Positions 14,756 through 30,584 of a stretch of 37,579 nucleotides of DNA are shown here, one piece after another. Below the pieces are notes generated by a model that saw only the letters and a program-made list of their open reading frames with translations, was not told the DNA's origin and made no database searches. This DNA comes from Saprospiraceae bacterium (GTDB lineage Bacteria > Bacteroidota > Bacteroidia > Chitinophagales > Saprospiraceae). Position numbers and translations under genes: made by a program. The stretch lies in contig JABSSL010000115.1 in assembly GCA_013214355.1 (NCBI GenBank), forward strand, positions 1-37,579, read 5' to 3'. Position 1 is the stretch's first letter, and each line of letters starts with the position of its first letter.

Positions 14756-16183
14756 ATGGTTCATAAATCATTGATTAATCGGGCATTACTGCTCTTGTCT
14801 TTTTTGACGCTCCAGATTTCAGTTTTCGCGCAAGATGAAGCTGCTGTCAACGCGGGTAAAGCGCTTTTCAAAACCAACTGTGCTTCGTGTCACAATAAAA
14901 ACATGAAGGACGACCTTACTGGGCCTGCCCTGGGGGGAGTGGAAGAGCGTTGGGCAGATTATGACCAAGCTGACTTGTATTCTTGGATTCGTAACTCACA
15001 GGCGCTGATCCAAGCGGGTCATCCAAAGGCCAACGAGGTGTACAACCAGTGGAACAAAGTGGCAATGACAGCCTTCCCAAATTTAACGGATGACGATATC
15101 AGTAATATCTTATCCTACATCAACTGTACCTATGCGGGGAACTGTCCGGGCCAAGTGGCGGTGACGAGTGCTCCTGGTGCCGGTGGAGCAGGAGGTGCTG
15201 ACGAAGGTTCTAATACGGGATTATTCGTTGTCTTGGCCGTTATCCTTGGTATTCTAGCCATCGTGTTGGCGCGCATCGCCTCCAATTTGAACTACATGTT
15301 GAAAGTTCAAGCAGGAGATGGAGGAGCTGGTCGTCGTTCTCTAGTGGACATCCTTACTAGCAAGGGCGTAATCGGTTTCTTGATTTTTGCACTCGTTGTA
15401 CTCGGTGGATATACTACGGTGAACAACGCGATCTCCATGGGCCGCCAGCAAGGTTATCAACCAGAACAACCGATCAAATTCTCTCATGCCACGCATGCCG
15501 GTGCACAGAAAATTGATTGCCAGTACTGCCACGACGGTGCCCGACGATCTAAGCACTCTGTGATCCCAGCAGCTAATACCTGTATGAATTGCCACAAAGC
15601 TATTAAGGTGGGTTCTACATACGGTACAGCCGAGTTGACTAAGATTTTTGCTTCGGTTGGTTATGATCCATCTACAGATACTTACATCCAAGATATTGAG
15701 AGCAAGTCAAATGATGAGCTGAAAGCGGTCTATGCCAAGTGGATTCAGAATGAATACATGAAGGAGGAGGATGCCAAAGTAAATAAAGTGGAAAGTGTGG
15801 TGGACGAGCAGTGGGATGCCATTGTTACTGCGCTGACTAATCCGGACGAAGGCGATGAAAGCGTTTACGGTCCAATTAATTGGATCAGAATTCATAACCT
15901 ACCTGATCATGCTTACTTCAACCATGCCCAGCACGTTTCGGTGGGTAAAGTAGAATGCCAGCAGTGTCATGGTAAGGTAGAAGAAATGGAAATTGTCGGT
16001 CAATACGCGCCCTTGTCAATGGGCTGGTGTATCAACTGCCATAGACAAACAGAAGTACAATTTAGCGGTAATGAGTACTACAAATCTTACAGCCGATATG
16101 TAGAGGAGCTAGAGAGTGGAGCCAGAGATAAGGTAACCGTAGAGGATATCGGAGGTTTGGAATGCCAGAAGTGCCATTATTAA
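14756..16183 (+). CDS. actA: ActA, multiheme cytochrome c subunit of alternative complex III
   Basis: A 475-residue exported, membrane-bound cytochrome. A signal peptide (about 1-25, ending VFAQ) is followed by a monoheme cytochrome c domain (about 28-132, CASCH at 42-46), a TM helix (about 153-175), a second TM helix (about 202-222), and a pentaheme domain with CQYCH (255), CMNCH (276), CQQCH (401), CINCH (425) and CQKCH (470). That makes six CxxCH sites, one more than the pentaheme ActA described for Rhodothermus. The last motif is almost at the C-terminus. It should carry electrons from ActB toward the oxidase. First gene of the operon; a 115-bp gap with an AT-rich inverted repeat follows. 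Confidence 0.92.
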   Translation: MVHKSLINRALLLLSFLTLQISVFAQDEAAVNAGKALFKTNCASCHNKNMKDDLTGPALGGVEERWADYDQADLYSWIRNSQALIQAGHPKANEVYNQWNKVAMTAFPNLTDDDISNILSYINCTYAGNCPGQVAVTSAPGAGGAGGADEGSNTGLFVVLAVILGILAIVLARIASNLNYMLKVQAGDGGAGRRSLVDILTSKGVIGFLIFALVVLGGYTTVNNAISMGRQQGYQPEQPIKFSHATHAGAQKIDCQYCHDGARRSKHSVIPAANTCMNCHKAIKVGSTYGTAELTKIFASVGYDPSTDTYIQDIESKSNDELKAVYAKWIQNEYMKEEDAKVNKVESVVDEQWDAIVTALTNPDEGDESVYGPINWIRIHNLPDHAYFNHAQHVSVGKVECQQCHGKVEEMEIVGQYAPLSMGWCINCHRQTEVQFSGNEYYKSYSRYVEELESGARDKVTVEDIGGLECQKCHY

Positions 16184-16202
16184 TTAATAGTGTTTAATTG
16201 AT

Positions 16203-16252
16203 AATTAATAATTGGGAGATCATTCTTCATTCTCCATTACTCATTATTAATT
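16203..16252. repeat. AT-rich inverted repeat between actA and actB
   Basis: AATTAATAAT (16203-16212) and ATTATTAATT (16243-16252) are a perfect 10-bp inverted repeat. An inner GGAGA/TCTCC pair (16215-16219/16231-16235) can extend it past an internal bulge. It lies in the 115-bp actA-actB gap with no T-tract, so mRNA processing or stability is more likely than termination. A miniature mobile-element remnant is another option. Confidence 0.5.
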
Positions 16253-16298
16253 GTTCATTACAAACGTGAAAGCCAATAGGTTCTTATAATTCATAAAA

Positions 16299-19200
16299 AT
16301 GAAGGAACAAAATAATCATATCTGGACGGGGACTGCTGATCTGAGTAATGCCTCGGACGTGCAAAAAGCAGCCAAGGAAGAGTTTGTTTCCCTGCCTGTT
16401 ACCGAGCAATTAGCCAATGACGATAACTTAAACGTAGAGGCGAGCCGTCGTGATTTCTTGAAGTACCTGGGTTTCAGCCTTGGTGCGGCAACGGTTGCGG
16501 CTAGTTGCGATATCCCAGTCAAGAAAGCGCTACCTTATGTAGTAAAGCCTGACGCCATTGTTCCTGGTGTCGCTACTTACTACGCTTCTAGTTTTGTACA
16601 AGGTGGAGACTACTGTGCCATTTTGGTAAAAACAAGAGAAGGTCGTCCTATTAAGATTGAGGGTAATAGCTTTTCTTCCATTACTAAAGGAGGAACTAGT
16701 GCTAGAGCCCAGGCTAGTGTTTTAAGCTTGTACGATACCAGTCGAATCGATGGCCCTTACCGAATAGGTGAAGCGGCATTTGATCAGGCAGGTGCTAAAA
16801 GAACAAGTCCAGGTTGGGCAGCTATTGATGCGGAGATCAAGGGTAAACTGAGCGGAAGCGCAAGAGTACGTATCGTAGCAAACACTATTTTGAGTCCGAC
16901 AACCAAGAAGGCGATTGCTGATTTTACGGCAAAGTATCCTAATACTAAGGTGGTGACTTACGATCCGGTTTCTAGCTCTGCGATGCTAGAGGCAAATGAA
17001 GAAAGCTTTGGAATGAAGATGATTCCAAGTTACCACTTCGATAAGGCGGATGTAATCGTAAGCTTCGATGCTGATTTCTTGGGAACTTGGATCTCTCCAA
17101 TCGAATTTGCAGGACAGTACGCCAAGAATCGTAAGATCACGGATGTAAATAATGCTAAACTCTCTAGACACATCCAAGTCGAGAGTCACATGACGCTTAC
17201 GGGATCTAACGCTGATAACCGTATCTTAATCAAGCCTTCTCATCAAGGTGCAGCCATCGTTGCTCTACACAATGAGATTGCTCGCGCTACTGGAAATGTG
17301 GCGATCAACCCAGTAAGTGGCGCAGATCCAGCCATCGCTGGCAAGATGAAGAAAGTAGCTGAAGAATTGTTGGCACACAAGGGGAAATCCTTGGTCGTGT
17401 CTGGTTCTAATAATAAAGGAGAGCAAGTATTGATCAATGCGATCAATGACTACCTTGGCAATTATGGAGCAACAATTGATTTGCTTGTTCCTTCCTTCCA
17501 ACGTCAAGGTATTGATGCTGAAATCCAGGATCTCATCAAAGAGATGAATGCAGGCCAAGTGGACGCCTTGTTCGTAATGGACGGCGCCAACCCTGCTTTT
17601 GATATACCTAATGCAGACCAATTTGTAGCCGGTGCTGCTAAAGTTGGTTTGAAAGTGTCTTTTGCGGGTCTTCCTAATGAGACCACCTTGGTTTGTGATT
17701 TTGCTACTCCAACTCACCACTTCTTGGAAAGTTGGGGAGATGCAGAGCCTAAGGCGGGACATTACAGCTTGATCCAACCGACCATCGCTCCCTTGTTTGC
17801 CTCTGTTGGTAAGGGGGGGACAAGAGAAGCTGGAGAGTCTCTATTGGTTTGGTCAGAGAGTGCTGCATTAGATGCTACGGCTGAGCAGCCTTATTACGAA
17901 TACTTGAAGGCACACTGGGAGGAAGCTATTTTCCCAATGCAAAACAAGTTCGCTACCTTCCAGGCATTCTGGGATAGCGCCTTGCACGATGGTATTTTGG
18001 AAATGCCAGCTCCTCCAGCTGAGGCTCCAGTAACTTTCCAAGGAAACATCAAAGTAGCTGGTGTTCAAACTAGAAAGCCAGCTAGTTCTGAATTAGAGAT
18101 TTCTTTTTTTGAAACAGTGAATGTAGGGGCGGGTCAATACGCCAACAACCCTTGGTTGATGGAAATGCCTGATCCCATTACCCGCTGTGTTTGGGGGAAC
18201 TACCTAGCTATCCCCGTGAAATGGAATGGTGGCAACGAATTCTCTGCTTTTAAAGATCTAAATGGTGCAGAATTCTACAGCGAAGCTGATCAGGTAGATG
18301 TAACCGCTAAAGGAGCTACTAATCGCTGTACCGTGATCCGTCAGTTTGGTCAAATGGATGGAACGGTAGCTATGGCGATCGGATATGGACGCAAAACTAC
18401 TGGTATCATGGGCCGAGCCCTTGGTCAGGAAGTAGGGGTGGATGTATACCCTTGGTTGTCTACCGACGAATACGGTAATACGCAATATTATGCGACCGAC
18501 GTAGATGTTTCCGGCAGACAAAGCAAAGATCTAGAATTTGCCTGTGTACAGTACCACCATACCATGGGTGTGACGGCTCGCGGAGAGGATGGCGAAATGA
18601 TAATGGATGAATCTACCGGAAAGCCATTGAATGTAGATGAGAAGGCAGCGATGACCTTAGGTGCTGGTTACCAGGGCGGTATTACAGAGCGTTCCATTAT
18701 TTACAAAGGTAATCTGAAGGATGTTGGAGAGCTTGCTGAGAAGATCAAAGAGAAGAGAGCTTTTGCTGAGACCTTGAACTCTCACTCTCTATATCCGTAT
18801 GAAGAATATAAAGAGAAATATTATTCTCAAGGCCACCACTGGGCGATGCACGTTGATCTTAACGCTTGTATTGGCTGTGGAGCTTGCCAAGTAGCTTGTG
18901 TAGCTGAGAATAATGTACCCGTTGTTGGTAAGCGTGAAGTACACCGTCACCACGAGATGACTTGGTTAAGAATTGATCGCTACTTCTACGGAGACTACGA
19001 AAATCCAAATGTAGTTTACCAACCTATGATGTGCCAGCACTGTGACAATGCTCCATGTGAGAATGTATGTCCAGTAGCTGCAACGAACCACAGTGCAGAA
19101 GGTTTGAACCAGATGACGTATAACCGTTGTATTGGTACCCGTTACTGCGCCAACAACTGCCCGTACAAAGTGCGTCGTTTCAACTGGTTAGACTACACTA

Positions 19201-19598
19201 CTGCAGACTTGTTTGCTTCTAATGAGCCAACGGTTAGCGGTGAGGAGCTACCTTATGGAGCAGATAACCTAACTCGTATGGTCTTGAACCCTGACGTTAC
19301 AGTACGCTCTCGTGGTGTGATTGAGAAGTGTAGCTTCTGTGTTCAACGTATCCAGGAAGGTAAATTGACTGCCAAGCGTGAAGGTCGTAAGTTGATGGAC
19401 AATGATGTGAAGACAGCTTGTCAAACGGCTTGTCCTACTGGCGCAATCGTATTTGGTGATGACAACAACACCAAAGGAGAATTGCACGAAAAAATGGCGC
19501 ATCCATTGAACTACAAAGTTCTGGAAGAAATCGATACTCGTCCATCTGTGGATTATACGGCTAAAATCAACAACCGTAGCGAAGCCTTGGACGCCTAA
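16299..19598 (+). CDS. actB: ActB, iron-sulfur / molybdopterin-oxidoreductase-like subunit of alternative complex III
   Basis: A 1099-residue periplasmic-side subunit. It has a long pre-region and then an extended Tat motif SRRDFLKYLGFSLG (49-62), the leader type known from Bacteroidota MoCo/4Fe-4S proteins; Cys70 follows it and could be lipidated. Residues about 75-790 resemble a molybdopterin oxidoreductase; in characterised ACIII this part binds no cofactor. The C-terminal ferredoxin-like part has four cysteine groups: 857/860/863/867, 912/915/920/924, 944/950/954 and 1011/1014/1041/1045. The third group reads CIGTRYCANNC, lacking one cysteine, as expected for the single [3Fe-4S] site beside three [4Fe-4S] sites. 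It passes electrons from quinol oxidised at ActC to ActA. Confidence 0.95.
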   Translation: MKEQNNHIWTGTADLSNASDVQKAAKEEFVSLPVTEQLANDDNLNVEASRRDFLKYLGFSLGAATVAASCDIPVKKALPYVVKPDAIVPGVATYYASSFVQGGDYCAILVKTREGRPIKIEGNSFSSITKGGTSARAQASVLSLYDTSRIDGPYRIGEAAFDQAGAKRTSPGWAAIDAEIKGKLSGSARVRIVANTILSPTTKKAIADFTAKYPNTKVVTYDPVSSSAMLEANEESFGMKMIPSYHFDKADVIVSFDADFLGTWISPIEFAGQYAKNRKITDVNNAKLSRHIQVESHMTLTGSNADNRILIKPSHQGAAIVALHNEIARATGNVAINPVSGADPAIAGKMKKVAEELLAHKGKSLVVSGSNNKGEQVLINAINDYLGNYGATIDLLVPSFQRQGIDAEIQDLIKEMNAGQVDALFVMDGANPAFDIPNADQFVAGAAKVGLKVSFAGLPNETTLVCDFATPTHHFLESWGDAEPKAGHYSLIQPTIAPLFASVGKGGTREAGESLLVWSESAALDATAEQPYYEYLKAHWEEAIFPMQNKFATFQAFWDSALHDGILEMPAPPAEAPVTFQGNIKVAGVQTRKPASSELEISFFETVNVGAGQYANNPWLMEMPDPITRCVWGNYLAIPVKWNGGNEFSAFKDLNGAEFYSEADQVDVTAKGATNRCTVIRQFGQMDGTVAMAIGYGRKTTGIMGRALGQEVGVDVYPWLSTDEYGNTQYYATDVDVSGRQSKDLEFACVQYHHTMGVTARGEDGEMIMDESTGKPLNVDEKAAMTLGAGYQGGITERSIIYKGNLKDVGELAEKIKEKRAFAETLNSHSLYPYEEYKEKYYSQGHHWAMHVDLNACIGCGACQVACVAENNVPVVGKREVHRHHEMTWLRIDRYFYGDYENPNVVYQPMMCQHCDNAPCENVCPVAATNHSAEGLNQMTYNRCIGTRYCANNCPYKVRRFNWLDYTTADLFASNEPTVSGEELPYGADNLTRMVLNPDVTVRSRGVIEKCSFCVQRIQEGKLTAKREGRKLMDNDVKTACQTACPTGAIVFGDDNNTKGELHEKMAHPLNYKVLEEIDTRPSVDYTAKINNRSEALDA

Positions 19599-19675
19599 AT
19601 TTGATCATTAAGAACTAAGAGAGGATTCCTCTTTTTTGATACGCACCGAGGTGCCGATATAAATAAGCTTAACTT

Positions 19676-21076
19676 ATGAGTGCTCCTGTTTCTTCAATAA
19701 GAGAACCATTAATTAACGGTGGAAAAACGTACCACCAGATCACTGAGGACATTTGTTCTCCGACTGAGAAGACGCCAAGTACGGCTTGGGTGATCGCCTT
19801 TATTATCGCGGTGGCGGGCTTGGCGTTCTACGTCTTTTGTGTGGCGTGGACCGTATGGGTTGGTATTGGCTCATGGGACTTGAACCGTACGATTGGATGG
19901 GGTTGGGATATTACCAACTTCGTTTGGTGGGTAGGTATTGGTCACGCAGGTACCCTGATCTCAGCGATCTTGTTGCTCTTCCGTCAGAAATGGCGTACCG
20001 GGGTAAACCGAGCTGCTGAGGCGATGACCATTTTCGCGGTAATGTGTGCCGGACAGTTTCCATTGATTCACATGGGACGTCTTTGGCTGGGTTTCTTTAT
20101 TTTCCCTTACCCCAACACGCGTGGGCCACTTTGGGTAAACTTTAACTCGCCACTACTCTGGGACGTATTTGCGATCTCTACTTATTTCACGGTTTCCTTA
20201 TTGTTCTGGTATACAGGTTTGGTACCTGACTTTGCTACAGTGCGGGACCGCGCTAAAGGAGTACGAAGAAAAATATACAATTTCCTATCCTTCGGATGGA
20301 CAGGATCTGCTAAGCACTGGCAAAGATGGGAGAGTCTATCTCTAGTTTTGGCCGGATTAGCAACTCCTCTTGTACTTTCTGTACACACCATCGTATCGTT
20401 TGACTTCGCCACTTCGGTAATACCTGGTTGGCACACCACCATTTTCCCGCCTTATTTTGTTGCAGGAGCGATCTTTTCGGGATTTGCGATGGTACAGACG
20501 CTGATGTTGATGACGAGGAAAGTATTGAAGTTGGAAGAATATATTACGCTGGCGCACATTGAGAGTATGAATAAGGTGATTCTTGCTACCGGTACCATTG
20601 TGGGGGTAGCTTACCTTACGGAACTCTTCATTGCCTGGTACTCAGGATATATCTACGAACAGTACGCCTTCTACAACCGGGTACTTGGGCCGTATTGGTG
20701 GTCTTACGTGGGAATGATGTCTTGTAATGTACTGTCTCCACAGTTGTTCTGGTCTCGTAAGATTCGTAGAAGCATCTGGTGGACCTTCTTGATGTCTATT
20801 TTTGTGAATATCGGTATGTGGTTCGAACGATTTGTGATTATCGCTACTACTTTGGCCAGAGACTACTTGCCATCAAGCTGGAGTTACTACACACCAACTT
20901 GGGTAGAAATTGGCTTATTTGTGGGTACGCTAGGTCTGTTCTTCACCTTGTACTTGATCTTTAGCCGAGTAGCACCGACAGTAGCTGCTGCCGAGATCAA
21001 GAGTATCTTGAAGACATCAGGTGATCAGTATACTGGACCGAATGCAGAGAAGCATAGCCACGCAGAAGCACATTAA
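19676..21076 (+). CDS. actC: ActC, NrfD/PsrC-like quinol-oxidising membrane subunit
   Basis: A 466-residue protein with about ten TM helices, the NrfD/PsrC fold of ACIII. Conserved-looking features include GHAGTLISAILLLFRQKWRTGVNRAAEAMTIF (around residues 90-120), the area of the proposed menaquinol site and proton path, and PLVLSVHTIVSFDFA (about 230-244). It ends in a short His-bearing tail (EKHSHAEAH). It would oxidise menaquinol in the inner membrane and hand electrons to ActB. A 77-bp gap from actB and 32 bp to actD support one transcript. Confidence 0.95.
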   Translation: MSAPVSSIREPLINGGKTYHQITEDICSPTEKTPSTAWVIAFIIAVAGLAFYVFCVAWTVWVGIGSWDLNRTIGWGWDITNFVWWVGIGHAGTLISAILLLFRQKWRTGVNRAAEAMTIFAVMCAGQFPLIHMGRLWLGFFIFPYPNTRGPLWVNFNSPLLWDVFAISTYFTVSLLFWYTGLVPDFATVRDRAKGVRRKIYNFLSFGWTGSAKHWQRWESLSLVLAGLATPLVLSVHTIVSFDFATSVIPGWHTTIFPPYFVAGAIFSGFAMVQTLMLMTRKVLKLEEYITLAHIESMNKVILATGTIVGVAYLTELFIAWYSGYIYEQYAFYNRVLGPYWWSYVGMMSCNVLSPQLFWSRKIRRSIWWTFLMSIFVNIGMWFERFVIIATTLARDYLPSSWSYYTPTWVEIGLFVGTLGLFFTLYLIFSRVAPTVAAAEIKSILKTSGDQYTGPNAEKHSHAEAH

Positions 21077-21108
21077 TCCATTTTGACAAGTACTTCAATC
21101 CTAATATA

Positions 21109-21639
21109 ATGAACAAGGAAAATACAGAGGTTTTATTCGGCTTGTACGATGATGAGACCGATTTGCTAAAAGCGGTAAAGGTTGCTAAGGACGATCATCT
21201 AGATATTATGGATGTATTCACGCCTTTCCCCGTTCACGGTTTGGATCCGCTTTTGGGTCTATCTGAAAGCCGACTTCACATCGCTGGTTTCATCTACGGG
21301 GCGATTGGTACGCTTACGGCCTTCTTGTTTATGACCTGGGTTTTTACGAGAGACTGGCCCATTATTTTTGGTGGTAAGCCTTATTTCTCTGCTCCAGCCT
21401 TCATTCCTATCACTTTCGAGCTTACCGTACTTTTTGCGGCGGTAGGTATGGTGGTGACGTTCTACATTATTTGTGGCTTAGGACCAGGCGTAGTCAATCC
21501 TAGTCTTGACGATAGAATTACAGATGATAAGTTCTGTATCGCTTTCGATACCAGCAATGCGGATGAGAGTGTGGTAGAAAAGCTGAAGTCGTTCTTCAGT
21601 TCCACTGGAGCTTCTGAGGTTAACACGAAGACGATTTAA
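21109..21639 (+). CDS. actD: ActD, DUF3341 membrane subunit of alternative complex III
   Basis: A 176-residue protein. Residues 1-55 are a cytoplasmic domain (VLFGLYDDETDLLKAVKVAKD) followed by a two-helix hairpin (about 60-80 and 100-125) and a short C-terminal domain. This matches DUF3341, the ActD family, a structural subunit without cofactor. Its position between actC and actE is the family's usual one. The start is ATG at 21109. Confidence 0.93.
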   Translation: MNKENTEVLFGLYDDETDLLKAVKVAKDDHLDIMDVFTPFPVHGLDPLLGLSESRLHIAGFIYGAIGTLTAFLFMTWVFTRDWPIIFGGKPYFSAPAFIPITFELTVLFAAVGMVVTFYIICGLGPGVVNPSLDDRITDDKFCIAFDTSNADESVVEKLKSFFSSTGASEVNTKTI

Positions 21640-21701
21640 GGAAGTGTTTAGACACTCCTTAGTACACTAATTTGAGCAAGCGTTTTTTCAAATATCGACT
21701 A

Positions 21702-22631
21702 ATGAAATCATTCAAAGTATTACTAATCGCTGCGATAGCCGTCATTATTCTTCAGGCTTGTTCACCAGCAGGTGGAGAGTTTGCAGGTAGTGAATATATG
21801 CCTGATATGGGCCACTCCGTAGCTTACGAGGCCAATACTTACAACTATTACTATCATAATACTTGGGACAAGGCGAGTTCTACTGATCTATGGAAGTTGT
21901 CTCAGCCAAGACTCCCAGTTAGCGGTACCATTCCAAGAGGTTATGCAGGGGTAGCGATGGCTTCCAATGCCACTGCTCAGTCTGCCATGATGGATGAGCT
22001 GAGAGGAGGATCTTCTACCAATGGGATTGCAGTGCCCTTAAGTGGTAATGCTCCTTATTATTACGAAGACACTGAAGAAGAGCGTCTTCGTGCCACCGCG
22101 GAGATCATTGATAATCCATTCCCGATCACAGCTGATGGTTTGGCTCGAGGAAAGGAATTGTACGAAGTTTTCTGTGGTATTTGCCACGGTAATAAAGGAG
22201 ATGGTAATGGTTATCTAGTGAGTGAGGAGAATGGAAATGCAGTATATCCTGCTCAGCCGGCGATCTTTACTACGGATGAATTCTTAGCTGCCTCTAACGG
22301 TCGGTATTACCATGCGATCATTTATGGTAAGAATGTGATGGGAGGATATGCGGATAAGATGTCTTACGAAGAACGCTGGCAAGTCATCCACTGGATTCGT
22401 GCTCTTCAGGCGAAGGAGAAAAAATTGGCTTACGACGAGAACGTAAATACCTTGAATGAGACTTTCGGTACGCCAATGAGTAGAATGGCACAGGTCGCTG
22501 ACCATGCTACCGATCATGAGGGAGAAAGCCATGAAGCTGGCCACGATGGTGAGGAAGGACATGGTGAAGACCACGGGGAAGAACATGGAGAAGAGCACGG
22601 TGGGGACCACGGAGAAGGTGAACACAAATAA
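21702..22631 (+). CDS. actE: ActE, monoheme cytochrome c lipoprotein with His-rich tail
   Basis: I prefer the ATG at 21702 over the in-frame TTG at 21672, because it starts a clean lipoprotein signal MKSFKVLLIAAIAVIILQAC (lipobox LQAC). The protein is then 309 residues. The single heme site CGICH is at 158-162 in a GKELYEVFCGICHGNKGDGNG context. It would be anchored to the outer leaflet of the inner membrane and accept electrons from ActA. From residue about 268 to the end the chain is almost only His, Glu, Asp and Gly (more than ten histidines), a likely metal-binding tail outside the cytochrome fold. Spacing to actD is 62 bp. Confidence 0.93.
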   Translation: MKSFKVLLIAAIAVIILQACSPAGGEFAGSEYMPDMGHSVAYEANTYNYYYHNTWDKASSTDLWKLSQPRLPVSGTIPRGYAGVAMASNATAQSAMMDELRGGSSTNGIAVPLSGNAPYYYEDTEEERLRATAEIIDNPFPITADGLARGKELYEVFCGICHGNKGDGNGYLVSEENGNAVYPAQPAIFTTDEFLAASNGRYYHAIIYGKNVMGGYADKMSYEERWQVIHWIRALQAKEKKLAYDENVNTLNETFGTPMSRMAQVADHATDHEGESHEAGHDGEEGHGEDHGEEHGEEHGGDHGEGEHK

Positions 22632-22652
22632 GCCGACTCACTCTTGAGCTAA

Positions 22653-22709
22653 GGATGAAAATGATCATCCCTGCTGTAATTAATCAGAAAACAACCAGGT
22701 ACGCCTGGT
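22653..22709 (+). other. two small hairpins in the actE-actF gap
   Basis: GGATGA/TCATCC (22653-22658/22665-22670) and ACCAGG/CCTGGT (22694-22699/22704-22709, loop TACG, a UNCG-type tetraloop in RNA) occur in the 105-bp gap. Neither has a T-tract. They may limit 3' decay or tune the relative output of the two halves of the operon. Confidence 0.35.
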
Positions 22710-22736
22710 AGCTATAAATCTTACAAGCTTAAAACA

Positions 22737-23993
22737 ATGAACCAATTCGTTCTTGAAGCAAAACATCGGACACTCCTTCTAACAGGTGTAGGTATAGGCG
22801 TGTTATGTTTGGTATTGACCTTCTTGGGAGATGATGAGTTGCATACTCGCTTTTGGTCTAATTATTTGCACAATACGGTTTTCTTCTTGGGAATTGCCTT
22901 TATGGCGGTTTTCGTACAATCGGCCTTTATTACTGCTTGGGCTGGTTGGTACACTTCGTTTAAGCGAGTGTGGGAAGCTGCATCGACCTTTTTAGTGCCT
23001 GCTTTGATCCTGATGATTCCGATCATTGCTGGTCTTTGGGGACATTTCCACCATCTATATCACTGGGCGGATGCAGAATCAGTAGCAAATGATCCTGTTT
23101 TACAGGGCAAATCTTCTTTCCTTAACACTAGCTGGTACACCTTCGGTACCTTGATTATCGTGGGTACTTGGATCTTTTTTGGATACAAGCTAAGAAGTTT
23201 GTCTTTACAGGAAGATAAGATGGCTCAAACGGCTGACTTCAAGATCCACAAGCAAGTACGAATTTGGGCGGCGGCTTTCTTGCCGATTGCAGGTTTCTCA
23301 AGTGCCGCAGTAATTTGGCAGTGGGTAATGTCTGTAGATGCGCACTGGTATAGTACCCTATTTGCTTGGTATACAGCCGTGAGTTGGTTCGTTTCATTAA
23401 TGGCTCTTACTATCCTTTGCTTAATCTTTATGAAGGGTAAAGGCTACTTTGAAAGCGTGACAGATGAGCACATGCACGATTTGGGTAAATATCTTTTCGC
23501 TTTCAGTATTTTCTGGACCTATCTATGGTTTTCTCAATTCATGTTGATTTGGTATGCAAACGTTGGGGAAGAAACGGTTTATTTCCAAACCAGAATGGAA
23601 CAATATCCTGTTCTATTCTACGGGAACCTGCTCCTGAACTTTATTACGCCATTCTTCGTGTTGATGAGAAACGATACTAAACGTAAGTATGGTACACTAG
23701 CTTTTGTATCGATTACTGTGTTGATCGGTCACTGGTGGGATTTCTTCCAAATGATTAAGCCAGGTGTATTGCATACCGCACATGAGGTGATGGCACACGG
23801 ACATGGTGCTGAAGGAGGACATCATGCAGCTGGTTTCCTAATGGGCTTCACGATTCCAGGTTTATTGGAGATCGGAACCTTCATTGGATTCCTTTCTGGA
23901 TTTATCCTGTATTTCTTTAGTCAATTAGCTAAGGAGCCATTGCACCCAACTAATGACCCATACATCGAAGAGAGCCTACACCATCACGTATAA
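22737..23993 (+). CDS. actF: ActF, second NrfD-like membrane subunit of alternative complex III
   Basis: A 418-residue integral membrane protein with about ten helices, homologous in layout to ActC but smaller, as in other ACIII operons. Recognisable stretches are QVRIWAAAFLPIAGFSSAAVIWQWVMS (about 170-200, with the SVDAHWYSTLFAWYT segment following) and GHWWDFFQMIKPG. A periplasmic or cytoplasmic loop near 344-362 is His-rich (AHGHGAEGGHHAAG). It contributes to the membrane dimer of NrfD-like subunits and possibly to proton movement. Last gene of the act block, 105 bp before oxidase subunit II. Confidence 0.93.
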   Translation: MNQFVLEAKHRTLLLTGVGIGVLCLVLTFLGDDELHTRFWSNYLHNTVFFLGIAFMAVFVQSAFITAWAGWYTSFKRVWEAASTFLVPALILMIPIIAGLWGHFHHLYHWADAESVANDPVLQGKSSFLNTSWYTFGTLIIVGTWIFFGYKLRSLSLQEDKMAQTADFKIHKQVRIWAAAFLPIAGFSSAAVIWQWVMSVDAHWYSTLFAWYTAVSWFVSLMALTILCLIFMKGKGYFESVTDEHMHDLGKYLFAFSIFWTYLWFSQFMLIWYANVGEETVYFQTRMEQYPVLFYGNLLLNFITPFFVLMRNDTKRKYGTLAFVSITVLIGHWWDFFQMIKPGVLHTAHEVMAHGHGAEGGHHAAGFLMGFTIPGLLEIGTFIGFLSGFILYFFSQLAKEPLHPTNDPYIEESLHHHV

Positions 23994-24098: not shown

Positions 24099-25589
24099 AT
24101 GACCGCATTACTTGCTATAATTTGTGTTATTTTAATTGCCGTCATTGCCGTACAGGTCGGTAAAGTGACTGAGCTTGCGGGGAAGATCAGAGGTGAAGAA
24201 GAGGTCCAGCAGCAGTCCAACCGAATGAATGCTAGTTTGGGAATGATCTTCATGGTGATTTTCTTGGTCGCCTCGGTGGTTTCGGCTTTCTATTACAAGA
24301 ACTGGATGCTGGGATACGGCCCGCACGAAGCGGCTTCTGAGCACGGGGTAAGTTTGGACTATTTGTTCAACATTACACTGTTCTTCACGGGCATTGTATT
24401 TATCATCACTCAGATCTTGTTGTTCTACTTTGCTTGGAAATACCAAGGTAAGAAGGATCGCAAGGCACTGTTTATGCCTCACGATAACAAATTGGAAATT
24501 ATTTGGACCATTATTCCAGCCGTAGTAATGACTTTCTTGGTTGTGGGTGGTTTGGATGTGTGGAACGAAGCCATGGCTGATGTTGAGCCAGGTGAAGAGG
24601 CCATCGAATTGGAAGCTACGGGCTACCAATTTGCTTGGGCGCTACGTTACCCAGGAGAAGATGGTAAACTGGGAACTAGAGACTACACCAAGATCAACGG
24701 AATTAATACGTTGGGTCAGGTTTGGACGGACGAAAAGAACTTGGATGACTTGATGGTTGACGAGATCGTTCTTCCAAAAGGTAAGCAGGTTAGAGTACGT
24801 ATTATCGCTAGAGATGTACTACACAACTTCTATCTACCTCACTTCCGTGTGAAAATGGATGCTGTTCCTGGTATGCCTACCTACTTTGTTTTCACCCCAA
24901 CGAAAACAACGGAGGAGTACAGAGAAGAATTGAGTAAATATCCAGAATACCAGACACCTGATCCAAATGATCCTGAAAAAATGCTTTGGGAGACTTTCGG
25001 ATATGAGCTAGCTTGTGCTGAGCTATGTGGATCTGGACACTTTAGTATGAGAAGACCAGTTCGTGTCGTTGAAGAAGACGAGTACGAAGCTTGGTTAAAC
25101 GGACAAAAGCCATTCTATCTAACAACTATTCGCGGTACGGATGAAGATCCATTCAAGGATGAACTACTAGACTTTGAAGTTAAAGAGCGTAGAACTTCCT
25201 TTATGAATACCTTCAACAAAGCTTACGCAGCTACTGATGACAGTTTGAAAATCGTTCGTCTACCTTACGTAAGTTTCGAAACCGGTTCTTCAACATTGAC
25301 TCCACTTTCTCGTTATGAATTAGATAATGTGGTGGACGTGATGAAGCAATTTGGTGAGATGACTATCGAGGTTGCGGGTCACACCGACAACACGGGGGAT
25401 GCTGATACCAATAGAACGTTATCAGAATCTCGCGCTAAAGTGGTGTACGATTACCTCGCCGGTAAAGATGTTGCTACAGATCGTATGTCTTATGTTGGCT
25501 ATGGCCAAGATAAGCCGGTTGATAGCAATGATACAGACGATGGTAGAGCAAACAATCGCCGTACTGAATTTAAGATCCTAACTCAGTAA
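24099..25589 (+). CDS. ctaC: cytochrome c oxidase subunit II fused to an OmpA-like peptidoglycan-binding domain
   Basis: A 496-residue protein, about 150 residues longer than ordinary subunit II. Helices lie at about 2-22, 46-65 and 85-110 with another at about 127-150; the cupredoxin domain spans about 160-330. The CuA site is complete: His242 (VLHNFYLPHF), then Cys306, Glu308, Cys310, His314 and Met317 in CAELCGSGHFSM. After a linker (about 335-385), residues 386-496 form an OmpA-family domain: FETGSSTLTP, GHTDNTG (Asp430), LSESRAKVVYDYL (Arg445) and GYGQDKP ... NNRRTEF. Asp430 and Arg445 are 15 residues apart, as are the diaminopimelate-binding Asp271 and Arg286 of Acinetobacter OmpA. The reading frame is continuous with no stop or shift, so the fusion is real in this sequence. 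Confidence 0.96.
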   Translation: MTALLAIICVILIAVIAVQVGKVTELAGKIRGEEEVQQQSNRMNASLGMIFMVIFLVASVVSAFYYKNWMLGYGPHEAASEHGVSLDYLFNITLFFTGIVFIITQILLFYFAWKYQGKKDRKALFMPHDNKLEIIWTIIPAVVMTFLVVGGLDVWNEAMADVEPGEEAIELEATGYQFAWALRYPGEDGKLGTRDYTKINGINTLGQVWTDEKNLDDLMVDEIVLPKGKQVRVRIIARDVLHNFYLPHFRVKMDAVPGMPTYFVFTPTKTTEEYREELSKYPEYQTPDPNDPEKMLWETFGYELACAELCGSGHFSMRRPVRVVEEDEYEAWLNGQKPFYLTTIRGTDEDPFKDELLDFEVKERRTSFMNTFNKAYAATDDSLKIVRLPYVSFETGSSTLTPLSRYELDNVVDVMKQFGEMTIEVAGHTDNTGDADTNRTLSESRAKVVYDYLAGKDVATDRMSYVGYGQDKPVDSNDTDDGRANNRRTEFKILTQ

Positions 25590-25670: not shown

Positions 25671-27533
25671 ATGGCTTCTAATGTTGCAATAACCGCGCCT
25701 CAGACTCAAGAAGATCTTCTCATAGAGGAGTATGGGTATGATGACCATTTTCATGATCATCACCATGGCGATAAGTATCAATCTAACTTTGTAACAACCT
25801 ATATTTTTAGCCAGGATCACAAGATGATTGCTAAGCAGTTCCTGATCACAGGTATGTTTTGGGCGATTATTGGAGGTTTGATGTCACTGGTTTTCCGTTT
25901 GCAATTGGGTTTCCCGGAAGAGAGTATGGCTTGGTTAAAGCCAATACTTGGTAAGTGGATCACGGTAAATGATGCAGGAATCGGAACCTTGGCGCCAGAG
26001 TTTTACTACGCTTTGGTAACCATGCACGGAACCATCATTGTATTCTTCGTATTAACTGCTGGATTGAGTGGTACTTTTAGTAACCTACTTATTCCTTTGC
26101 AGGTAGGAGCGAGGGATATGGCTTCTCCTCTCCTGAACATGTTTTCTTACTGGTTCTTCTTCTTGGCAGGGGTTGTAATGTTTGCTTCCTTGTTTTTGAA
26201 TACGGGACCCTTCTCGGGAGGATGGACGGCCTACCCGCCGCTCAGTGCGCTGCCGCAGGCCTCGTCTGGATCAGCGGCAGGTATGACTCTATGGACGGTA
26301 AGTTTGGTACTGTTCGTGGTATCTGTATTGCTAGGTGGTATTAATTATGTTACCACTGTATTGAATCTTCGTACGAAAGGTATGACCATGTGGCGTTTGC
26401 CATTGACCATTTGGGCATTCTTTATTACGGCGATCATTGGTATACTTTCATTCCCGGTATTAGCATCAGGTTTCTTCTTGTTGATGTGTGATCGTGGTTT
26501 GGGTACCAGCTTCTTCCTAAGTGAAATCTTTATCGGTGGACAGGCATTGGATCACGTTGGTGGTAGTCCAGTATTGTACCAGCACTTGTTCTGGTTCTTG
26601 GGACACCCTGAGGTGTATATCATTATCTTGCCTGCGATGGGTATTGTATCAGAAGTACTTTCTGTACATGCACGTAAGCCGATCTTCGGATATAAAGCGA
26701 TGGTTTATTCCATCTTGGCAATTGCTTTCTTGTCGTTCATCGTATGGGCTCACCACATGTTCATGTCTGGTGTGAATCCATTTATCTCTAACTTCTTTGT
26801 GATCTTCACACTGATCATTGCAGTACCTTCTGCGGTGAAGGTGTTTAACTGGATTGCGACTTTGTATGGAGGTAATGTGCGTTTCAATTCTGCAAGTTTG
26901 TTTGCAATTGGATTTGTTTCGATGTTTATCTCTGGTGGTTTGACGGGTATTTTCCTTGGAAACTCTGCCATTGATATCCAGTTGCACGATACTTACTTCG
27001 TAGTAGCTCACTTCCACATTGTGATGGGTATTGCCGCTTTCTTCGGTATGTATGCCGGTGTATACCACTGGTTCCCTAAGATGTTTGGACGTTTCATGAA
27101 CGAAACGCTAGGTAAGATTCATTTCTGGGGTACTTTGATTGGCGCTTATGCCATCTTCTGGCCCATGCACTACTTGGGTATGGCTGGTGTACCTCGTCGT
27201 TACTATAGCTTCGACATCTTCGATACTTTCCGTCACTTCAGTACCATGAATAAATTCATCACTATTGCAGCAATCATCGTTTTTGCCTTGCAAGTATTGA
27301 TGGTGATCAACTTCTTCTACAGCATCTGGAAAGGTAAGAAGATGACTACGCAGAATCCATATGGAGCAAGTACTTTGGAATGGACTACGCCAATTGAAGT
27401 AGGACACGGAAACTGGCCTGGTAAAATTCCTGCAGTACAGCGTTGGCCATATGATTATGGTAAAGATGGAAGAGAGTTTATCTCTCAGGTAGAGCCAATG
27501 ACGGAGAAAGAGATCGCAGAGGGAGCGCACTAG
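25671..27533 (+). CDS. ctaD: cytochrome c oxidase subunit I (A1-type, aa3)
   Basis: A 620-residue protein with twelve or more TM helices, the catalytic subunit that reduces oxygen to water and pumps protons. Ligands are all present: His119 and His449 for low-spin heme a, His447 for the high-spin heme, and His312, His361 and His362 for CuB. GHPEVY (311-316) gives the cross-linked His312-Tyr316 pair and the A1-type glutamate Glu314; a D-channel-like VGARDMASP motif is also seen. The N-terminus before TM1 carries a His/Asp cluster (residues 24-33, DDHFHDHHHG) not needed for the core. An 81-bp gap follows subunit II. Confidence 0.97.
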   Translation: MASNVAITAPQTQEDLLIEEYGYDDHFHDHHHGDKYQSNFVTTYIFSQDHKMIAKQFLITGMFWAIIGGLMSLVFRLQLGFPEESMAWLKPILGKWITVNDAGIGTLAPEFYYALVTMHGTIIVFFVLTAGLSGTFSNLLIPLQVGARDMASPLLNMFSYWFFFLAGVVMFASLFLNTGPFSGGWTAYPPLSALPQASSGSAAGMTLWTVSLVLFVVSVLLGGINYVTTVLNLRTKGMTMWRLPLTIWAFFITAIIGILSFPVLASGFFLLMCDRGLGTSFFLSEIFIGGQALDHVGGSPVLYQHLFWFLGHPEVYIIILPAMGIVSEVLSVHARKPIFGYKAMVYSILAIAFLSFIVWAHHMFMSGVNPFISNFFVIFTLIIAVPSAVKVFNWIATLYGGNVRFNSASLFAIGFVSMFISGGLTGIFLGNSAIDIQLHDTYFVVAHFHIVMGIAAFFGMYAGVYHWFPKMFGRFMNETLGKIHFWGTLIGAYAIFWPMHYLGMAGVPRRYYSFDIFDTFRHFSTMNKFITIAAIIVFALQVLMVINFFYSIWKGKKMTTQNPYGASTLEWTTPIEVGHGNWPGKIPAVQRWPYDYGKDGREFISQVEPMTEKEIAEGAH

Positions 27534-27562
27534 TGCTCAGAAACTAGAAACTAGATTACAGA

Positions 27563-27592
27563 GGGCGGTCTGTTCTTCAGAGCAGACCGTCC
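27563..27592 (+). other. intercistronic hairpin between subunit I and ctaB genes
   Basis: A 10-bp stem (27563-27572 with 27583-27592, one G-T pair, core CGGTCTG/CAGACCG) and a 10-nt loop. It lacks a T-tract, so it is unlikely to be a full terminator. It could protect the 3' end of the oxidase message or partly attenuate transcription before the assembly gene ctaB. Confidence 0.55.
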
Positions 27593-27615
27593 TTGAACAA
27601 TAAATCGATCATATC

Positions 27616-28515
27616 TTGTCAACAAAAGCAGTACAGCATCATAGCAGTCCAGGCTTCTTGCAAAAGATCCAAGACTACAAGATGTTGGTTAAGTTGAGAC
27701 TAAGTCTTACGGTAGTATTTTCCTCCGTAATGGCTTTCTTGATTGCTAGTAATGGCAACTGGACTTGGCTGGCTGTAGCTGTACTAGCCTTAGGTGGTTT
27801 TCTGGTGACAGGAGCGGCTAATGCTTTGAACCAGGTTTTGGAGAAAGATTATGATAAGTTGATGACGAGAACTGCTAATCGACCTATAGCTGCCGGACGC
27901 ATGACGACTTCAGAAGCGGTTTTGGCTGCTGGTTTTATGAGTATGATTGGTATTTCTCTTTTGGCCTTTTTCAACCCTTGGGCTGCTTTCTTAGGGACCT
28001 TATCTTTGGTGTTTTACTCCTTCGTGTATACACCATTAAAAAGGATTTCACCAATAGCGGTATTTATTGGTGCTATTCCAGGAGCACTGCCCACTATGAT
28101 CGGTTGTGTGGCGATAGAAGGACAGCTAACCTTATTGGCCTTGAGCCTTTTTGGGCTACAGTTCTTCTGGCAATTTCCACATTTCTGGTCTATCGGTTGG
28201 TTAGGTTATGAAGACTACAGCAAAGCCGGCTATAAGTTGGTACCGATGCGCGATGGGAAGATGGATGACAAAGAGATGGGGTGGCAGTCTTTATTGTGTG
28301 CCTTTGTATTACTACCCGTAGGCTTGTTGCCTTATTTCACGGGAGTAAGTGGTCTGGTATCCGCTATCTTAGTTGCTATACTAGGAATTGGATATGTAGT
28401 AATGTCCTGGCATTTTTATCGAAAGCCAGAACGTAAGACAGCCTTGGGCTTAATGTTTTATTCTTTTGCATATATCCCATTTTCCCTGATCCTTTTATTT
28501 ATTGATAAAATTTAA
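27616..28515 (+). CDS. ctaB: protoheme IX farnesyltransferase (heme O synthase)
   Basis: A 299-residue UbiA-type prenyltransferase with about eight to nine TM helices. It adds a farnesyl group to heme b to make heme O, the precursor of heme a for the oxidase encoded around it. The signature NQVLEKDYDKLMTRTANRP (about residues 73-91) carries the conserved Asp residues and Arg. Another conserved loop is W..GYEDYSKAGYKLVPM (about 198-215). The frame starts with TTG at 27616; an internal ATG at 27682 would cut into the conserved N-terminal region before helix 1, so TTG is preferred. It ends four bases before the next gene. Confidence 0.93.
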   Translation: MSTKAVQHHSSPGFLQKIQDYKMLVKLRLSLTVVFSSVMAFLIASNGNWTWLAVAVLALGGFLVTGAANALNQVLEKDYDKLMTRTANRPIAAGRMTTSEAVLAAGFMSMIGISLLAFFNPWAAFLGTLSLVFYSFVYTPLKRISPIAVFIGAIPGALPTMIGCVAIEGQLTLLALSLFGLQFFWQFPHFWSIGWLGYEDYSKAGYKLVPMRDGKMDDKEMGWQSLLCAFVLLPVGLLPYFTGVSGLVSAILVAILGIGYVVMSWHFYRKPERKTALGLMFYSFAYIPFSLILLFIDKI

Positions 28516-28519
28516 TCAG

Positions 28520-29098
28520 ATGGAAGTGGCTGTAGGAAAACAACAATTTACTCGAAATAAAATACATCCTAAGAAATTTGCCTTGGCAGTAGCCTGTGGC
28601 AGTATTCTCATGATGTTTTCGGCGTTCACTAGTGCTTATATTGTGAGACAGGCCGCCGGTAATTGGCTAGAATTTCAATTGCCATCCTTGTTTTTCTTGA
28701 GTACTGGAATCATTTTAGCGAGTAGTTTGACATTACATTTCTCTTATAAGTCTTTCTTGAAGGGAAATGAGCAGCTGTATAAGACACTGCTAGTAGTTAC
28801 CCTGATCCTAGGACTGGGATTTGTGGTGATGCAATATCAAGGTTGGTTGAGTATGATGGAGATGGGGGTGCCCTTGAAGACTAATCCTTCCGGAGATTTC
28901 ATTTATGTGATCTCTGGGGTACACGCGGTACACGTGTTGGGAGGAGTTACGGCTTTGATCATTGCACTCTTGCATGCATTTACCTTGAAGTATAAGGTAA
29001 CGCCGGCAAGGAAACTACGCTTTGAATTGACTTTTATTTATTGGCATTTTGTTGGATTTTTGTGGTTGTATCTGATCGTATTCTTTTCGATCCAATAA
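28520..29098 (+). CDS. cytochrome c oxidase subunit III-like protein (first of two)
   Basis: I choose the ATG at 28520 (192 residues) over the in-frame TTG at 28502, which would overlap ctaB. The protein has about five TM helices and the subunit III pattern: SAFTSAYIVRQAAGNW, then FVVMQYQGWLSMMEMGV, VHAVHVLGGVTALI (the HxxHVxxG motif) and a final YWHFVGFLWLYLIVFFS. Two consecutive subunit III genes are common in Bacteroidota oxidase operons. It is likely structural and may stabilise proton uptake. Spacing to ctaB is four bases, so the two are probably translationally coupled. Confidence 0.9.
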   Translation: MEVAVGKQQFTRNKIHPKKFALAVACGSILMMFSAFTSAYIVRQAAGNWLEFQLPSLFFLSTGIILASSLTLHFSYKSFLKGNEQLYKTLLVVTLILGLGFVVMQYQGWLSMMEMGVPLKTNPSGDFIYVISGVHAVHVLGGVTALIIALLHAFTLKYKVTPARKLRFELTFIYWHFVGFLWLYLIVFFSIQ

Positions 29099-29137
29099 CC
29101 ACTAGAGTATAAACAAAAAACAAAATATTTTTTACTG

Positions 29138-30124
29138 ATGGCAACAACTGATACAGTAGTTGAGCACGAAGTTCACGATGATAAGGAGTTATGGTCTGGC
29201 GCCAAAGAACCCTTTAAGGCGAGTTATGGAAAATTGATGATGTGGTACTTCCTGTTGTCAGATGCGTTTACGTTTGCTGGCTTTTTGATCGCTTATGGAG
29301 CTTTACGTTTCAGTAGTCCTACTTGGCCAGTTCCTGACTTTGTATTCAAGACTCACCCGTTTGGTAGCAGTGAGTTACCATTGATTTTCGTTACGGTGAT
29401 GTCGTTCTTGTTGATCATCAGTTCGGTGACGATGGTACGTGGAGTACAGGAAGGACATCGTAATAATACCAAAGGGGTGGTATTCTGGATGCTTCTTACT
29501 ATCCTTGGTGGTATTGGATTCTTAAGTTGCCAGGCTTGGGAATGGACCAATCTGATTGCTACTGAGCACATGACAGTGACTCGTAATCCGTTCGGTACGC
29601 ACGTGGAATCTGGTGTTTATCTCAATGACGATGGATCAGAATCCGACGAAGTCTTTGAAGCCGGAGCCAGCTATTTGATTCATAAGGCTGGTGGACACGG
29701 ACATGGGCACGGTGATGACCATGGTGATGATTCGCACGGTGGAGAAGCGCATAGTGATGATGGACATGGTGATGGTCATGGAGCACATGCCACAGATCCA
29801 GGAGACTACAAAGGTCATGTGATAGACAATGAAGGATTTTTACATAGAAAATACAAAGTAACGGAAGGTCCCAACGAAGGAATGGTGAAGTATGAAAGCT
29901 TTGGACCGAAGTCGTTCGGTGCCCTGTTCTTTTTCATCACAGGTTTCCACGGCTTCCACGTATTTTCGGGGGTGGTGTTCCTTTTCATTATTATGATCAA
30001 TGCTGCTAGTGGATTGTACGTAGAAAGGAACAATGGGCATGAAATGGTAGAGAAGATCGGCTTGTACTGGCACTTTGTAGACTTGGTGTGGGTATTCGTA
30101 TTCTTGGTATTCTACCTACTGTAA
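29138..30124 (+). CDS. ctaE: cytochrome c oxidase subunit III (second), with His-rich insertion
   Basis: A 328-residue protein. Core helices match subunit III: WYFLLSDAFTFAGFLIAYGAL (about 30-50), SSVTMVRG, a helix ending in CQAWEWTNL (about 130-138), GALFFFITGFHGFHVFSGVVFLF (about 260-285) and a final YWHFVDLVWVFVFLVFYLL. Between the third and fourth parts, residues about 182-218 are a hydrophilic run of alternating His, Gly and Asp (HGHGHGDDHGDDSHGGE) within a larger loop of about 110 residues. This insertion is absent from ordinary subunit III and is a plausible Cu or Zn binding loop. Spacing to the previous gene is 39 bp. Confidence 0.92.
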   Translation: MATTDTVVEHEVHDDKELWSGAKEPFKASYGKLMMWYFLLSDAFTFAGFLIAYGALRFSSPTWPVPDFVFKTHPFGSSELPLIFVTVMSFLLIISSVTMVRGVQEGHRNNTKGVVFWMLLTILGGIGFLSCQAWEWTNLIATEHMTVTRNPFGTHVESGVYLNDDGSESDEVFEAGASYLIHKAGGHGHGHGDDHGDDSHGGEAHSDDGHGDGHGAHATDPGDYKGHVIDNEGFLHRKYKVTEGPNEGMVKYESFGPKSFGALFFFITGFHGFHVFSGVVFLFIIMINAASGLYVERNNGHEMVEKIGLYWHFVDLVWVFVFLVFYLL

Positions 30125-30167
30125 GATCATCATTCATTAATTAGCAATTGCTTTAAATCCAATATAA

Positions 30168-30584
30168 ATGGGACATTTAAGCTACGAAGAATCAATCAAG
30201 AAAGTATATCAGGGACTTATCCTGTTGGGGGTGGTAACCCTTATTGAAGTAGGATTATCATTATTTGGTAAAGGATATATCATTGGTGGAGTAGAAGACT
30301 ACAAAGCCGTTATCTATCTCGTAGGCCTAGGCTTGATCGTACTTTCTTTGTATAAGGCTTACTTTATTATCTACGAGTTTATGCACATGCGCTATGAGGT
30401 AAAAGGATTAGCACTTAGTGTTTTGCTTCCCACCCTCCTATTGATCTGGGCGATTATCGCTTTCTTCCAAGAAGGAGGTTCCTGGAAAGACCGTAGAGAT
30501 CAAATACAGGAAAAGAATGCTGAGCCATCTGATGCGCAAGGCATGCTACCCGATGATGTTTATCGACTCGAAAACTTCGGTTAG
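30168..30584 (+). CDS. cytochrome c oxidase subunit IV (prokaryotic COX4 family)
   Basis: A 138-residue protein with three predicted TM helices (about 15-32, 42-65, 80-100). The stretch KAYFIIYEFMHMRYEVKGLALSVLLPTLLLIWAIIAF contains the EFMHMR motif of the family; it is written here only to mark residues 63-99 with that motif. It is an accessory oxidase subunit of unclear detailed role. It is the last gene before the strong terminator at 30591, so it closes the operon. Confidence 0.88.
   Translation: MGHLSYEESIKKVYQGLILLGVVTLIEVGLSLFGKGYIIGGVEDYKAVIYLVGLGLIVLSLYKAYFIIYEFMHMRYEVKGLALSVLLPTLLLIWAIIAFFQEGGSWKDRRDQIQEKNAEPSDAQGMLPDDVYRLENFG

Follow-up and report, generated by a model that had tools for sequence, protein, structure and literature searches.

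The window, by which we refer to the whole analyzed stretch of 37,579 nucleotides from a Saprospiraceae genome, hosts on its + strand an alternative complex III (ACIII) gene set (14756–23993), a set of oxidase genes (25671–30584) and, between the two, a single unbroken open reading frame at 24099–25589 encoding a protein of 496 aa. In this protein, subunit II of an aa3-type cytochrome c oxidase (COX2) is fused to a C-terminal OmpA-type domain (COX2-OmpA). The gene is linked to the COX1, COX3, and haem o synthase genes. The members ActA to ActF of an ACIII operon were all recognized, ActD by its own profile, ActA, ActB, ActC, and ActE by content and position, and ActF by position only. The features are the following:

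14756–16183, +: ActA-like multihaem cytochrome c with an N-terminal cytochrome c domain, ACIII (by content and position)
16299–19598, +: ActB-like protein, molybdopterin-like and iron-sulphur subunit fused (by content)
19676–21076, +: ActC-like membrane subunit, NrfD-type
21109–21639, +: ActD (PF11821)
21672–22631, +: ActE, monohaem cytochrome c with a lipoprotein-type N-terminus, without OmpA domain in the window
22737–23993, +: ActF-like membrane protein without Pfam or NCBIfam match (by position)
24099–25589, +: COX2-OmpA, subunit II of cytochrome c oxidase with C-terminal OmpA-type domain, 496 aa
24099–24191, +: additional predicted N-terminal helix of the fusion, residues 1–31, probably transmembrane
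24195–24572, +: three more predicted helices, residues 33–158, including the COX2_TM match at 76–149 (low-to-moderate model confidence)
24591–25073, +: CuA domain, residues 165–325, with H242, C306, E308, C310, H314, and M317
25074–25250, +: linker, residues 326–384, with a predicted helix at 358–377, near-constant in length within the family
25251–25583, +: OmpA-type domain, residues 385–495, with Asp430 and Arg445
25671–27533, +: COX1, oxidase subunit I
27616–28515, +: haem o synthase (CtaB)
28502–29098, +: COX3-type subunit, copy 1
29138–30124, +: COX3-type subunit, copy 2
30168–30584, +: prokaryotic oxidase subunit IV (COX4_pro)

The C-terminus of ActE (approximately 22485–22631 in the window) forms a His/Asp/Glu-rich, possibly metal-binding tail, both in the window and in most aligned fused relatives. 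Within the 11.2 Mb draft genome, the fusion is the sole COX2 match (E 0.001), while COX1 is matched twice, the second time in a 716-residue frame on a different contig, and the OmpA profile 47 times.

The fusion of a CuA subunit II with an OmpA-type domain is real. As the original prediction had read it, one frame carries the complete CuA subunit followed by the OmpA domain, and all three Pfam profiles concerned score above their cut-offs: COX2_TM at residues 76–149 (41.9 bits, cut-off 22.8), COX2 at 171–265 (41.6 bits, cut-off 22), and OmpA (PF00691) at 393–487 (E 2.2e-20, 73.3 bits vs. a cut-off of 27.2), the last spanning profile positions 2–98 of 98. The NCBIfam CoxB equivalog reached 138.5 bits, slightly below its cut-off of 147.7. 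In an 18-row alignment, the CuA ligands H242, C306, C310, H314, and M317 are invariant; E308 is present in the window protein and lies outside the invariant columns. Directly before the CuA ligand loop, an insertion (24933–24995, residues ~279–299) is common to the aligned Saprospiraceae COX2s, fused or plain, and missing in four aligned loci (L086, L089, L092, L095). A SecG profile touches residues 2–61, which include the N-terminal helix, at a score under the SecG cut-off. A caa3-like cytochrome c domain on the fusion was ruled out, the sequence being devoid of CxxCH and matching no cytochrome c profile. In the OmpA part, Asp430 and Arg445 stand at the predicted positions with a spacing of 15. 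By motif and spacing, they match D271 and R286 of Acinetobacter OmpA, which interact with diaminopimelic acid (PMC6572160).

The full protein, whose modelling had been proposed along with the original prediction, was modelled with AlphaFold2 (18 rows; mean pLDDT 81.6, pTM 0.66). Confidence differed by block, with a pLDDT of 80–93 in the OmpA part and 48–83 in the membrane helices, and the model places a helix at linker residues 358–377. A Foldseek search against the PDB returned COX2 chains as best matches (7au3_B at E 1.8e-13). At rank 41 it recovered 6jfw_A, the peptidoglycan-binding OmpA-type domain of PA0833 (31% identity, with a TM-score of 0.76 when normalized to target length), so that the C-terminal domain is predicted to adopt an OmpA-like fold. 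The COX2 fold has its C-terminus on the periplasmic side, and by this topology the C-terminus of the fusion would be periplasmic as well. A corresponding model of an ActE-OmpA protein (13 rows) reached a mean pLDDT of just 49.5, too low for use. The OmpA domain model begins at a distance of 68 residues from CuA Met317 in the window, a value that is also the median of 120 rows (range 54–88, sd 3.6; exactly 68 in 57 rows), near-duplicates and rows of other families included. The predicted linker of about 50 residues is accordingly a fair figure for the free part, but falls short of these 68 residues, which are partly predicted helix adjacent to the CuA domain. Approximately 20 unstructured linker residues together with the 20-residue helix could span ~95–105 Angstrom beyond the CuA domain, which would perhaps be of the order needed for wall contact.

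Extension of the analysis to 150 genomes of the same family, recognized as Saprospiraceae by the named matches of the fusion protein (Saprospiraceae or Lewinella-type records), revealed COX2-OmpA in 101 of them. A COX2 without OmpA domain was found in 38, a degenerate COX2 C-terminus unmatched by the domain model in two (G144, G048), and an unclassified fragment in one (G127); the remaining eight were scored as lacking COX2, i.e., had no match better than ~1e-25. Among the 101 are three genomes with a gene truncated at contig ends or interrupted by a frameshift (G086, G147, G043), as well as G145, which bears two distinct COX2-OmpA genes (L147, L161). Two congeneric genomes share the architecture at 94–95% identity and one named record at 86%, while other members of the family have it, among the matches listed, at identities as low as 45%. 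Of two named organisms, the isolate Neolewinella persica DSM 23188 (L078) is fused and Flavilitoribacter nigricans is plain; a genome assembled into one contig (G060) carries the fusion too. An assembly or binning chimera, which had been named as a possible refutation of the original prediction, is thereby ruled out, given 101 of 150 fused family genomes including the isolate and the one-contig genome.

On phylum level, 88 of 296 sampled genomes matched the fusion protein at 1e-25. All six Saprospiraceae among them are fused, no match outside this family in the sample covers both parts, and all ten matches of one other family (f2) end by residue 356. A sample of 298 genomes of the order, in which the matches listed reach ~E 2e-85 and f2 falls outside them, yielded a full-length match in at least four genomes of at least three other families, namely G481 (f55), G454 (f64), and G457 and G468 (f53), at 39–44% identity. 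In the fetched loci of all four, the OmpA domain was confirmed by HMM. Judged from these samples, the fusion appears to be usual in most Saprospiraceae and not in Bacteroidota at large. Accordingly, the original view that OmpA domains are no normal part of a respiratory enzyme stands for the phylum at large, but not for most sampled Saprospiraceae, and is further qualified by a photosystem subunit treated below.

Within the family, further variation of the COX2 C-terminus was observed. In genus g48 (L157, L159, L228), it has the length of an OmpA domain and is unmatched by the domain model, an apparent decay of the anchor. Several plain COX2s carry other long C-terminal tails (L186, L190, L196, L197, L200, L202, L204, L206), which by eye are acidic, Lys-rich, His-rich, His/Gly/Thr-rich, or coiled-coil-like. 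Plain and fused COX2s occur together within single genus codes (g20, g40, g57, g59, and, in family f53, g248). One contig titled as Beijerinckiaceae (L087) bears a Bacteroidota-type COX2 with 42% identity to that of the window and is probably mislabelled or derived from a mixed bin.

A second carrier of the OmpA domain was found in ActE, a cytochrome c lipoprotein that belongs to ACIII and is encoded two genes upstream of COX2; in two examples, Pfam OmpA scored 76 and 90 bits alongside cytochrome c domains. This ActE-OmpA is present in 11 of the 38 COX2-plain Saprospiraceae genomes (G112, G069, G100, G097, G126, G003, G033, G036, G113, G125, G005). The domain is seen on neither gene in 27 of the 150 family genomes, all with plain COX2, 25 with plain ActE and two (G134, G027) with no ActE in view. 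Conversely, ActE is plain in all 61 of the 101 fused family genomes in which it is visible. Beyond Saprospiraceae, ActE-OmpA occurs in six intact genomes of two families, five of f59 (G490, G502, G497, G514, G506) and one of f66 (G480), or seven with G518 (f59), in which the OmpA domain lies in a different frame overlapping the ActE end; one fetched locus each of f59 (G472) and f66 (G459) is plain. COX2 is plain at all ActE-OmpA loci (L185, L186, L188, L190, L191, L193, L199, L201, L203, L204, L205, L234–L239), for L237 as judged from the same genome's COX2 on another contig (L253). Frameshifts split ActE-OmpA in L245 (G518) and COX2-OmpA in L198 (G043), representing either sequencing error or real loss. 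With ActE-OmpA as query, only six out of 292 phylum genomes were matched at a cut-off of 1e-30, which weaker fusions would escape; all six are Saprospiraceae, and none of them matched at full length. In the fetched family loci, comprising mostly ~6 kb of flank (~1.5 kb for L012–L046), no other OmpA-domain ORF of at least 80 aa was detected at E 1e-4, and none of 18 same-class loci outside the order with both genes seen carried the domain on either.

Among the 131 tree rows with both genes visible, 68 have COX2-OmpA, 16 ActE-OmpA, 47 neither (three of them degenerate), and none both. The 102 family rows among these (64, 10, 28, and 0, respectively) gave a Fisher's test value of 2e-5, obtained from related rows, and the 29 non-family rows an exclusion p of 0.55. 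A sister-pair test of the exclusion comprised only four pairs, with the other trait differing in none or one of them, and is powerless at that number. The mutual exclusion between COX2 and ActE thus appears to rest on few independent events. The OmpA domain recurs on one or the other partner of a putative supercomplex.

The evolutionary history was approached by a FastTree phylogeny of the COX2 core and COX1 (172 rows, nine of them less than half filled), from which the window, G135, and G097 (dropped with duplicates) as well as broken loci are omitted. COX2-OmpA is found on most early-branching Saprospiraceae, an early exception being the plain row L192, and is missing at many scattered tips. 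The tree holds 19 changes of the COX2-OmpA label and six of the ActE-OmpA label, counts that do not separate gain from loss. In the simplest reading, COX2-OmpA would be old in the family, and ActE-OmpA would have arisen within it where COX2 had lost the domain. Trees of the domain itself (110 columns) are poorly resolved; in these, the COX2 domains of f53 (96/87) and the ActE domain of f66 (96/96) join paralogues on starred branches. None of the AU tests rejected its constraint, be it one clade of Saprospiraceae COX2 and ActE domains (p 0.50), of Saprospiraceae COX2 and the four other-family COX2 domains (p 0.26), or of Saprospiraceae COX2, ActE, and f53 (p 0.083), nor did those of wider clades with f55/f64 (p 0.29) or f59 ActE added (p 0.43). 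A relocation of the domain from COX2 to ActE and an independent capture are both compatible with these tests, and separate origins are not statistically secured.

Conservation was determined for domains matching the model over at least 85 positions, which excludes the degenerate copies of g48 (L157, L159, L228). Of 113 distinct COX2-borne family domains, 112 have Asp430 and all 113 have Arg445, and both residues are retained in all four other-family COX2 domains and all 18 ActE-borne domains; in paralogue domains the counts are 26 of 28 and 28 of 28. The pair singled out by the original prediction hence turned out to be near-invariant across the family, and so are Thr429, Asn438, Leu441, and Ser442, as in paralogues. 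Mean column conservation over 109 fused rows amounts to 0.76 in the CuA part, 0.52 in the linker, and 0.62 in the OmpA part, and the median identity to the window to 0.65 in the COX2 part (residues 33–325) vs. 0.51 in the OmpA part. For pairs among the window, L071, and L072, dN/dS is 0.019, 0.035, and 0.037 in the OmpA part and 0.012 and 0.021 in the CuA part (third pair saturated), all being rough values at dS >1. Pairs with the more distant L073, which are saturated, gave a dN of 0.13–0.16 for OmpA vs. 0.056–0.060 for CuA, i.e., ~2.5 times as much. These values point to purifying selection on the OmpA domain, which is constrained, though less so than the CuA part.

In our favored interpretation, to which we assign a probability of roughly 0.6, we are dealing with a functional subunit II whose OmpA-type domain grips peptidoglycan and thereby ties an ACIII-aa3 supercomplex to the cell wall. 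The domain on the periplasmic C-terminus would most likely grip the diaminopimelate stems of peptidoglycan, and this grip would fasten the inner-membrane supercomplex, so that it diffuses less and keeps a set distance from the wall. The anchor would act like that of MotB or TssL, here on a respiratory enzyme, and one anchor per supercomplex seems sufficient, on whichever subunit acquired it. Tethering is favored by the spread of the fusion, its status as sole COX2, the conserved Asp/Arg pair, the purifying selection, the constant linker, and the alternation between COX2 and ActE. The location of the domain on either gene of the same operon also supports the form of this idea that invokes an ACIII-oxidase supercomplex. 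The existence of such a supercomplex in the window organism is suggested by analogy, through the shared operon, to Flavobacterium johnsoniae, from which ACIII was isolated in complex with aa3 and in which ActE is lipid-anchored, electrons still reaching aa3 without it (PMC8552683). The faster evolution of the OmpA part relative to the COX2 part counts against tethering, as do the 27 family genomes that show the domain on neither gene, the small number of independent events behind the exclusion, and the statistically unsecured separate origins. The frequent absence of the domain and the degenerate copies indicate that it is dispensable, such that the anchor may be useful in some settings and not essential. 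Overall, the interpretation given in the original prediction is partly supported. The sequences show the fusion, its operon and spread, the conserved ligand residues, the purifying selection, and the alternation; peptidoglycan binding, the supercomplex in this organism, its tethering, and a benefit from it are inferred.

Several other explanations have to be weighed against this wall-tethered supercomplex. The gain might lie with the envelope, the oxidase merely being a convenient abundant carrier of a spacer between inner membrane and wall. The 47 OmpA matches in the genome, indicative of heavy use of the domain in this lineage, and a carrier varying among relatives as if any abundant one will do would fit this idea, which we nevertheless regard as unlikely, as the carrier near the operon is always COX2 or ActE and no other ORF of at least 80 aa in that neighbourhood has the domain. 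Alternatively, the domain could by now have lost peptidoglycan binding and serve as a protein–protein clamp or stability module inside the supercomplex; the near-fixed linker length and the predicted helix at 358–377 could indicate such a defined docking. The near-invariance of the DAP-contact Asp/Arg pair and of the four accompanying residues, shared with paralogues, speaks against the loss of binding and makes a clamp improbable.

Little credence is likewise given to a nearly neutral capture, in which a chance fusion brought in a common domain that was then tolerated and repeatedly lost. Such a course would fit the 19 label changes of COX2-OmpA on the tree, the degenerate copies in g48, and the other odd COX2 tails in several genomes, but not the low dN/dS, the ligand residues kept at identities down to 45% among the matches listed, or the recurrence of the domain on a second subunit encoded in this operon. 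The tethering reading can, in turn, be extended toward a respiratory stator, with a domain captured more than once, on COX2 or ActE and never both, that immobilizes respiration; the alternation would then be genetic evidence that both complexes form one unit. We put this extension forward tentatively, at somewhat less than even odds.

A comparison with known systems shows which part of this picture is new. Anchoring of inner-membrane machines by OmpA-type peptidoglycan-binding domains is already known, as two papers document for the MotB/PomB stator and for TssL/TagL of type VI secretion (PMC8253398, PMC9093738). MotB/PomB and TssL chains in the PDB match the window's OmpA domain; these are, however, force-bearing or secretion machines, whereas the fusion is a respiratory enzyme. 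The caa3-type oxidase (PDB 2yev) resembles the fusion by an additional C-terminal periplasmic domain on subunit II, and its chain 2yev_B is Foldseek rank 2 for the fusion model. This added domain, a cytochrome c, bears haem c and feeds electrons, in contrast to the OmpA-type domain devoid of CxxCH on the fusion. Closer in kind is PsaB of Gloeobacter photosystem I (PDB 7f4v, chain aB), a core energy-transducing subunit with an OmpA-type C-terminus, whose residues 771–866 match the window's OmpA domain at E 9.2e-13; it differs in being part of a photosystem, in a cyanobacterium, on a carrier unrelated to COX2. The C-terminal extension of Gloeobacter PsaB has reportedly been described earlier; our search of open-licence papers found none on it. 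In the structure paper, PsaB was modelled for residues 3–727, with the OmpA-type stretch outside, and the word 'peptidoglycan' does not occur in the text (PMC9000952). For the COX2-OmpA fusion itself, no report was found in the open-licence literature; one article mentions OmpA and an oxidase, but separately (PMC12487129). An OmpA-type domain on a respiratory terminal oxidase and its alternation between partner complexes are hence the new elements.

With this fusion, a respiratory enzyme joins the machines that use OmpA-type domains, its nearest parallel being Gloeobacter photosystem I. For the question whether bacterial respiratory complexes and supercomplexes are fixed or freely diffusing, these bacteria offer a natural comparison, with close relatives having or lacking the domain on COX2 and others having it on the partner complex. 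If the stator reading is true, terminal respiration would be fixed in the envelope in Saprospiraceae and in scattered families of their order.
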